From Reyranella massiliensis 521 (lineage in GTDB: Bacteria > Pseudomonadota > Alphaproteobacteria > Reyranellales > Reyranellaceae), in assembly GCF_000312425.1 (NCBI RefSeq), contig NZ_HE997181.1, positions 3,377,044-3,441,043 of the forward strand: 64,000 nt of DNA. The letters run 5' to 3'. A program made the translations under genes and the position numbers. Below are positions 27,086-29,088 of this stretch, piece after piece. The number at the start of each line of letters is the position of its first letter. Position 1 is the first letter of the stretch. The notes beneath the pieces were generated by a model. It had not been told where the DNA came from. It ran no database searches and saw only the letters and a list, made by a program, of their open reading frames with translations.

Positions 27086-28168
27086 CTATTCGCTCGGCCG
27101 GTTGGTGAAGCGCGCGTTGCCGAGGCCCGTGCCGATGGTGAGCACACCCCATCGGCCGACATCTTCCATGTTAGGCACTTCGCTGAGGCCCTGCACCACG
27201 GCGTCGTTGTGAATCAACACCGTCGGCTGGTGACCGTCGATGCGCGGCAGCCTCCCTGCCAACGTCGCATCAAGACGAAAGCCTTCCTCCTCCCAGTTGC
27301 CCGGCAGATTCTGCCCGCCGTTCAGGATCGAGCCGTGCTCGTCGATCAGACCCGGACAGCCGATGCCGACAAAAGGCGCGACCTTGAGCTTTGCGTCGGC
27401 TGCGCGTTCCATCAGACTGGTTACCATCTCCGCCAAACGCTGGATGGCTTCCTCGCGGTCAGGCTCGTCGTCGCGGTGCCGCCAATGCTGCGACTTCCAG
27501 ACGGCGGCCTTGGAGACATCGCCTTTGCGCATCTTCAGTTCGACGATGCCGGCCCTGATGTTCGTGCCGCCGATATCGACCGCCGCGATGGCATCGTGCC
27601 CCGCAAGCATCCAGCTTGGTGCGAGTTGGACGGCACCGATCAGCCCCGCTTCGTCGGGGTGGTTGGAGATGGGCCGCAGCTCGACCGTCGTGCCTTCGCC
27701 TGCGAGGATGATCTGGGCACGTCCCATGGAGAGCTGACCGATGTGGCTCGAGCTCAAGCCACCCCCCACGACGATACGTTCTGTCCCACGCCAATCCTCG
27801 AGGCGCAGGAAGCGGCGCACTACCGTGGCCAGCTCATGGGCGAATTCCTCGACGGCTGTATGCACGAGGCCCGCCGCGACGGTTTCGTCGCCGGCCAGGG
27901 CTTTGTCGAGTTTGGATTTGGAGATCTCGTCGGTCGGCGTATCGCCGAACGGGTCTTCGCCCAATGTCTTCACGAGCCGCTCGCGCCAGTCGTCGAGGAT
28001 CGCCCGGAAGGCGCGTCCGCTGGCGCGATCCCCGACGAACCCTTCCGAGTCACGCAGCTCTTCGTTGTAGGTATCGACCGTAACCGCAGGCAGGACGCGA
28101 GCGCCATGGCTGAGGACGGCGGCGACCGCAGGATCTTTTCCCTGATCATCGAGCTGCCGGCTATCCAC
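27086..28168 (-). CDS. ROK/glucokinase-like protein with apparently permuted halves
   Basis: A 360-residue sugar-kinase-fold protein. The ROK N-terminal signature, phosphate-1 motif IAAVDIGGTNIRAGIVE, begins only near residue 195. It is followed in order by VGIGCPGLIDEHG, NLPGNW, the catalytic-Asp motif IHNDAVVQG and the phosphate-2 motif TIGTGLGNARF, which ends the protein. Elements normally C-terminal to these precede them: a helical ASGRAF segment, ERIVVGGGLSSSH near 135 and PDEAGLIGAVQLAP near 175. The Zn-binding CxCGxxGC loop is absent. GTG at 28168 is chosen because AAGG lies eight bases upstream. Kinase activity is uncertain. Confidence 0.8.
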   Translation of the reverse strand: MDSRQLDDQGKDPAVAAVLSHGARVLPAVTVDTYNEELRDSEGFVGDRASGRAFRAILDDWRERLVKTLGEDPFGDTPTDEISKSKLDKALAGDETVAAGLVHTAVEEFAHELATVVRRFLRLEDWRGTERIVVGGGLSSSHIGQLSMGRAQIILAGEGTTVELRPISNHPDEAGLIGAVQLAPSWMLAGHDAIAAVDIGGTNIRAGIVELKMRKGDVSKAAVWKSQHWRHRDDEPDREEAIQRLAEMVTSLMERAADAKLKVAPFVGIGCPGLIDEHGSILNGGQNLPGNWEEEGFRLDATLAGRLPRIDGHQPTVLIHNDAVVQGLSEVPNMEDVGRWGVLTIGTGLGNARFTNRPSE

Positions 28169-28257
28169 CTGATCACCTTCCCTCGCGGCGATATGGGCCG
28201 CAGCAGGATAAGAACGAAACACGGCCGCCGGAGTTCCTTGCACCGATCTCTGATAGA

Positions 28258-29088
28258 ATGTCGGATGTGATCGGCATCCCTTTCTGGACGACCCTGCTGC
28301 TGCTCGCCTTCGCGTCGGCGGCGGCGGCGCAAAATTCTCGCCCGATACCCGAACTCGGCACGCCGGGCAGCACCTTGCCGCCCCGCACCTTCCCCGGCGC
28401 TCCTCCCGCGCCCGGAGCGGCCGGGGCCAGCGACGAGATCAGGGATCCGACGACCGGCTGTGCCGTCGTGAGCATGAACGCCGAACCCAATGTCGGGATC
28501 ACCTGGTCGGGCGATTGCGAGCATGGTCTGGCGCAGGGCAAGGGCGTGCTGCAATGGACCCGGGATGGCAAGCCTGCGGAGCGCTACGAGGGCGAGATGA
28601 AGGACGGGCTCTACGAGGGTACCGGCAAGATCACCTACGCCAACCGCGCGCGCTACGAAGGCGAATTCAAGGCCGGCGAACGGGATGGCCGGGGTACCTA
28701 CGTCTTTCCTAGCGGCGGCCGCTACACCGGCCCATTCCGCGAAGGCCGCCCCAACGGCCAGGGCGCCTATGTGTGGCCCAATGGCAACCGCTACATCGGC
28801 GAATTCAAGGACAACCAGCGTACCGGACGCGGGACGCTGCTGTTCGCCGATGGCGGCCGCTACGAAGGCGATTTCGTCAACGGCAAGATGCAGGGGCGCG
28901 GCCTGCGCGTCTGGAACAACGGCACCCGCTACGAAGGCGATTGGTCGAACGACGTCGCCAACGGATATGGCAGGTGGGTGGGAGCCGATGGCCAGGTCTT
29001 CTCGGGGGTCTGGGTGAACGGCTGCCACCGCGAAGGCAGCCGGTGGGCGACGGTGGGCGTCACCGCGCAGAGCTGCGGTTTCCAGTAG
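28258..29088 (+). CDS. secreted MORN-repeat protein
   Basis: A 276-residue protein with a signal-like hydrophobic N-terminus (WTTLLLLAFASAAAAQ) and a proline-rich linker (about 28-60). From about residue 95 there are six MORN repeats of about 23 residues with the YEGE/F...GxGxYxxxxGxxY pattern (RYEGEFKAGERDGRGTYVF, RYIGEFKDNQRTGRGTLLF). Cys68, Cys86 and the C-terminal cysteines may form disulfides. MORN arrays form elongated beta sheets involved in membrane or protein binding; no enzyme domain is attached. Divergent from the ROK-like gene. Confidence 0.88.
   Translation: MSDVIGIPFWTTLLLLAFASAAAAQNSRPIPELGTPGSTLPPRTFPGAPPAPGAAGASDEIRDPTTGCAVVSMNAEPNVGITWSGDCEHGLAQGKGVLQWTRDGKPAERYEGEMKDGLYEGTGKITYANRARYEGEFKAGERDGRGTYVFPSGGRYTGPFREGRPNGQGAYVWPNGNRYIGEFKDNQRTGRGTLLFADGGRYEGDFVNGKMQGRGLRVWNNGTRYEGDWSNDVANGYGRWVGADGQVFSGVWVNGCHREGSRWATVGVTAQSCGFQ

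Follow-up and report, generated by a model that had tools for sequence, protein, structure and literature searches.

A circularly permuted ROK-type protein in Reyranella massiliensis and other Pseudomonadota, with a predicted EcfG-type promoter in part of the Alphaproteobacteria

The window analyzed here is the 64,000-nucleotide stretch of Reyranella massiliensis 521 spanning positions 3,377,044 to 3,441,043 of contig NZ_HE997181.1. Its minus strand encodes, in one frame of 360 codons plus stop, a protein that matches the ROK sugar-kinase family in two stretches of crossed order. Translation from 28168 to 27086 yields every motif quoted below, and the coordinates given by the initial annotation, which had described a ROK-type fold with exchanged halves, were correct.

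28176..28181, minus strand: Shine-Dalgarno-like GGAAGG ahead of the GTG start at 28168 (read from the sequence).
27086..28168, minus strand: coding sequence of the circularly permuted ROK protein, 360 amino acids, GTG start, stop included (single open frame, orthologs in the same frame, dN/dS 0.06).

Elsewhere in the window, a divergent gene encoding a MORN-repeat protein with a signal-like N-terminus (28258-29088) starts immediately past the EcfG-type site that precedes the permuted gene, and a gene of the universal stress protein family (PF00582; 33246-34049) lies a few kilobases away.

A search of the whole protein against the Pfam ROK model (PF00480) returned 45.6 bits versus a curated cut-off of 22.9, distributed over two stretches: residues 195-354 aligned with profile positions 2-139, and residues 48-183 with positions 178-291. 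Each half was also recognized in isolation, residues 1-183 matching the C-terminal half of the profile (positions 178-291, 17.5 bits, E 0.003), which removes the objection that the first half might match no ROK model, and the C-terminal half scoring 31.3 bits. Profile-profile comparison (hhalign) with 31 independent canonical proteobacterial ROK proteins reproduced the crossing, with residues 195-277 aligned to positions 11-78 (E 4e-7) and residues 80-140 to positions 208-261 (E 4e-5). The N-terminal parts of the NCBIfam glucokinase, BglK and polyphosphate glucokinase models matched the second half of the protein only. Rotating the sequence to the canonical order left the Pfam score essentially unchanged (45.7 versus 45.6), because HMMER adds both stretches and the absent loop remains absent. 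The swap of halves was thus found by both approaches, and the crossed Pfam match, together with the same crossing in profile-profile comparison, shows that its sequence is genuinely circularly permuted, with the following anatomy:

28106..28108, minus strand: H21, invariant, proposed equivalent of the ExGH histidine at the new N-terminus (from its 29-residue spacing to S50).
27623..28027, minus strand: ROK C-terminal segment, residues 48-182 (Pfam ROK 178-291; Pfam and profile-profile comparison).
27758..27766, minus strand: GGG adenosine motif, residues 135-137, invariant (alignment).
27587..27622, minus strand: linker bridging the former C- and N-termini, residues 183-194 (gap between the two Pfam segments; alignment).
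27107..27586, minus strand: ROK N-terminal segment, residues 195-354 (Pfam ROK 2-139; Pfam, profile-profile comparison and structural match of a model).
27563..27577, minus strand: phosphate-1 motif DIGGT, residues 198-202, with D198, G200 and G201 invariant (alignment).
27203..27205, minus strand: D322 of HND, at the catalytic-base position, invariant (alignment and profile-profile comparison).
27119..27133, minus strand: phosphate-2 motif GTGLG, residues 346-350, invariant (alignment).

The alignment of 20 sequences presents few gaps in the core. Residues invariant in the 20 relatives comprise GGG (135-137), S141, D198, G200, G201, N203, CPG (271-273), QNLPG (286-290), HND (320-322, including N321 and D322), most of VVQGLS (324-329) and the phosphate-2 core of TIGTGLGNA (G346, T347, G348 and G350). 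Retention of the catalytic aspartate (D322) and of the phosphate-1 (D198-G201) and phosphate-2 (G346-G350) motifs, already proposed in the initial annotation, is borne out by these relatives, in which the same elements and GGG persist down to 50% identity. The zinc loop had been reported as missing where the new termini fall, and ROK profile positions 139-178 indeed find no match; this interval holds the end of the GTGxGxG strand, the glutamate of ExGH and the cysteine knuckle that forms the zinc site (CxCGxxGCxE). The sole conserved cysteine in the alignment is C271 of CPG, and G46/D47 occupy the position of the CxE glutamate. Near the new N-terminus, H21 sits in an invariant-histidine context (HGAxxLP). 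The canonical GExGH histidine lies exactly 29 residues before the serine of CxExxxSG in 25 of 27 proteobacterial ROK proteins with both motifs, and the distance from H21 to S50 is likewise 29 residues in the window protein, a spacing seen in 20 of 21 permuted sequences. Because the invariant H21 keeps this canonical spacing to the SG motif, the cut seems to have fallen inside ExGH, the histidine being retained and the glutamate and zinc site lost.

The ROK sugar kinases (PF00480; glucokinase TIGR00744, NagK, NanK, Mak, BglK) are homologous to both halves and share the DxGGT, CPG, ND, GTGxG and GGG motifs with the permuted protein; they differ from it in the order of the halves and in possessing the ExGH glutamate, the cysteine zinc knuckle and the CxE glutamate. 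Since two defining ROK features fail, namely the ExGH/zinc loop and, in both Pfam and hhalign, the collinear order of the halves, the protein is on these sequence comparisons a permuted offshoot of ROK and not a plain member. The best single-sequence PDB match was the polyphosphate/ATP glucomannokinase 1woq (E 2e-7, residues 194-353), which has the canonical order and whose lead vanished in the profile search, so that special kinship is not established. The canonical ROK gene of the host genome (G000:C1:2420106-2420996) belongs to the same family and also lies behind an exact EcfG motif; unlike the permuted protein, its product has the normal order and complete GEWGH and CYCG motifs. Pfam and NCBIfam profile searches matched no HTH family of the kind found in ROK repressors (NagC/Mlc type), and only 47 residues precede the ROK segment.

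Directly upstream of the gene, a sequence that fits at every fixed position the EcfG consensus GGAAC-N16-CGTT, as reported for Rhizobium etli EcfG1 (PMC3892343), precedes a short leader, the GGAAGG and the GTG start:

28213..28237, minus strand: predicted EcfG-type promoter GGAACTCCGGCGGCCGTGTTTCGTT (GGAAC-N16-CGTT).

One such site means little alone, because the whole-genome motif count in the host does not exceed that of the reversed control (99 versus 142). Counted in an upstream interval kept fixed across loci, the strict motif is present in 9 of 24 independent alphaproteobacterial loci, with 0.02 expected from shuffles, and the relaxed form GGAAC-N16/17-NGTT in 12 of 24. Nine of the 24 presented no EcfG-like motif, relaxed matching included. 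Other loci, probably from one large-genome genus, carry variants in the corresponding position, GCAAC-N16-CGTT for example, as judged by eye. A conserved block, GcAAC-(A/C)AAC(C/G)GGTTCCC-N4-5-GTTGTC, with a conserved GGTTCCC core, was observed upstream of loci L029-L033, L036 and L037 and reads as a variant EcfG site. NepR is encoded in the host genome, where an ECF-sigma-like ORF was seen by eye beside nepR, and in 23 of 31 carriers. It was not found in the five non-alphaproteobacterial carriers, and the three of these examined for the motif had none upstream. Membership of the permuted ROK gene in the EcfG general-stress regulon is therefore a prediction supported by the upstream motif and by the presence of NepR in the genome. 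Both otsB and the canonical ROK gene of the host are preceded by an exact GGAAC-N16/17-CGTT roughly 100-140 bases before the start, which suggests a stress-induced sugar-phosphorylation and trehalose module.

G000:C1:4096500-4100500 and 2418500-2422500: the host regions (L102 and L103) that contain otsB and the canonical ROK gene.

The permuted ROK gene is usually stand-alone, and its neighbors vary across loci. Several of these neighbors are osmotic-stress genes. A divergent otsB is adjacent in Rhizobium and Shinella (supported by a Pfam match for locus L096), a peptidase of the NAGGN osmoprotectant system adjoins the gene in S. meliloti, and a glycine-betaine transporter and a mechanosensitive channel lie beside one further locus each (L099 and L089). 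Given this variability, deduction of the substrate from operon context was given up. OtsB was present in 24 of 24 carriers tested versus 69 of 289 genomes of the class (24%). For the 12 carriers within this class sample, Fisher P is 1.6e-8, uncorrected for ancestry and genome size, both of which confound the co-occurrence.

On balance, we favor a permuted ROK sugar kinase that is free of zinc, is induced by stress and may feed the synthesis of trehalose or osmolytes, with both activity and substrate predicted. The new termini open in the ExGH/zinc loop, whose knuckle is gone, and about 12 residues join the old termini. The chain would close as one ROK-like two-domain fold in which the C-terminal GTGLG loop meets the invariant N-terminal histidine; ATP would be held by the DIGGT, GTGLG and GGG motifs, and D322 would deprotonate a sugar hydroxyl, making the protein a hexokinase-type sugar kinase that works without zinc. 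In many alphaproteobacteria the gene would be transcribed by EcfG as a stand-alone unit in the general stress response, as the promoter evidence indicates. The weakest step is the last, in which glucose or a related sugar would be phosphorylated and feed trehalose or another stress carbohydrate. Activity of some kind is probable; the simplest assumption, a tentative one, is that glucose is phosphorylated to supply trehalose synthesis. Because the ExGH glutamate is absent and G46/D47 stand at the CxE position, the protein contacts its sugar differently, and it could lack kinase activity or accept another substrate. A permuted pseudo-kinase that binds sugar or nucleotide without phosphorylating, as a stress-related sensor or protein partner, would agree with the joint loss of the ExGH glutamate, the Cys/Zn knuckle and the CxE glutamate and with variable neighbors that point to no pathway, and the ROK family does include non-catalytic repressor members. 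We consider it unlikely, since the catalytic aspartate, both phosphate motifs and GGG remain invariant to 50% identity, which is not the pattern of typical pseudo-enzymes, and no DNA-binding domain was found in the Pfam search. For the permuted kinase, a bolder version holds that permutation opened a hexokinase-fold enzyme in its own substrate/zinc loop, and that the outcome may be a widespread kinase, free of zinc and induced by stress, that acts on a new substrate, either a sugar or an osmolyte, and serves osmoprotection in rhizobia and their relatives; this is possible, though we would not bet on it.

AlphaFold models computed from four sequences were weak, the first having pLDDT 60.6 and pTM 0.51 and the second 51.2 and 0.52. 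Residues 190-360 of the first model nevertheless matched the N-terminal domain of a ROK kinase (2yhw; Z 11.1, rmsd 3.0, 141 aligned). The top Foldseek matches of the weak model were tandem two-lobe hexokinases, with low TM-scores that were not used as proof; such matches would be expected from a permutation if they span the lobe junction. They would also agree with a swap that is used between chains, in a domain-swapped or interlocked dimer with each ROK unit built from two chains. A half-exchanged chain would arise naturally from a tandem duplication whose two ends were trimmed away, and closure was not seen in the weak models. We regard this dimer as improbable, because the old termini lie close together, a linker of about 12 residues could plausibly bridge them, and intramolecular closure is simpler. 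Closure of the single chain into one ROK-like fold is the likely arrangement.

Public records name the permuted protein 'ROK family protein', 'glucokinase' or 'hypothetical protein'. In a literature search on permutation in ROK proteins, the ASKHA fold and sugar kinases, no permuted ROK protein was found described, a provisional result as it excluded supplementary tables, and, with the same scope, no paper was found that assigns the gene to the RpoE2/EcfG regulon. No word beginning with 'permut' occurs in a 2025 review of the glucose kinase superfamily (PMC12696579). Natural circular permutation of the ASKHA fold in ROK enzymes hence appears undescribed in the literature searched. The protein represents an unrecognized family tied, by its predicted promoter, to the general stress response in soil bacteria and nitrogen fixers, and offers a way to test if new termini next to the substrate of a sugar kinase are tolerated or put to use.

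Orthologs with the same order of halves were identified in many genera at 50-95% identity, with close ones (92-95%) in MAGs of Reyranella and of an alphaproteobacterium, and one at 53% in Ensifer adhaerens. By tblastn, 206 plasmid records were matched, 204 of them with coverage of 80% or more; nearly all are rhizobial, and Methylobacterium, Bradyrhizobium and Roseateles are also represented. Counting strong full-length matches only, the gene is carried by 12 of the 289 genomes sampled from the class and by 22 of the 398 sampled from the phylum Pseudomonadota, to which the genome sample was restricted, other phyla being covered through the plasmid collection. Two carrier families (f181 and f184) lie outside the Alphaproteobacteria. 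Scores are bimodal, with permuted members above 400 bits over their whole length and ordinary ROK proteins below 30 bits, nearly all in the second half only. With dN/dS of 0.058-0.062 against close orthologs and equal values for the halves (0.062 and 0.061), the protein is under strong purifying selection that acts equally on both. A frame or assembly error, or a chance fusion of two ROK gene pieces, was rejected as having a negligible probability: ortholog searches of genomes and plasmids found nothing in its support, and the same order and fused frame recur in more than 200 plasmid records and many genomes, at 50-95% identity and with dN/dS of about 0.06. The permuted form, cut at the active-site loop, was fixed and spread through many bacterial families. 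An origin in phages was rejected, as no match was found among 50,697 phage records or in viral contigs. Some large genomes (G484, G468) carry more than one copy of the gene, and G468 presents an additional short match to the N-terminal segment of the permuted ROK only.
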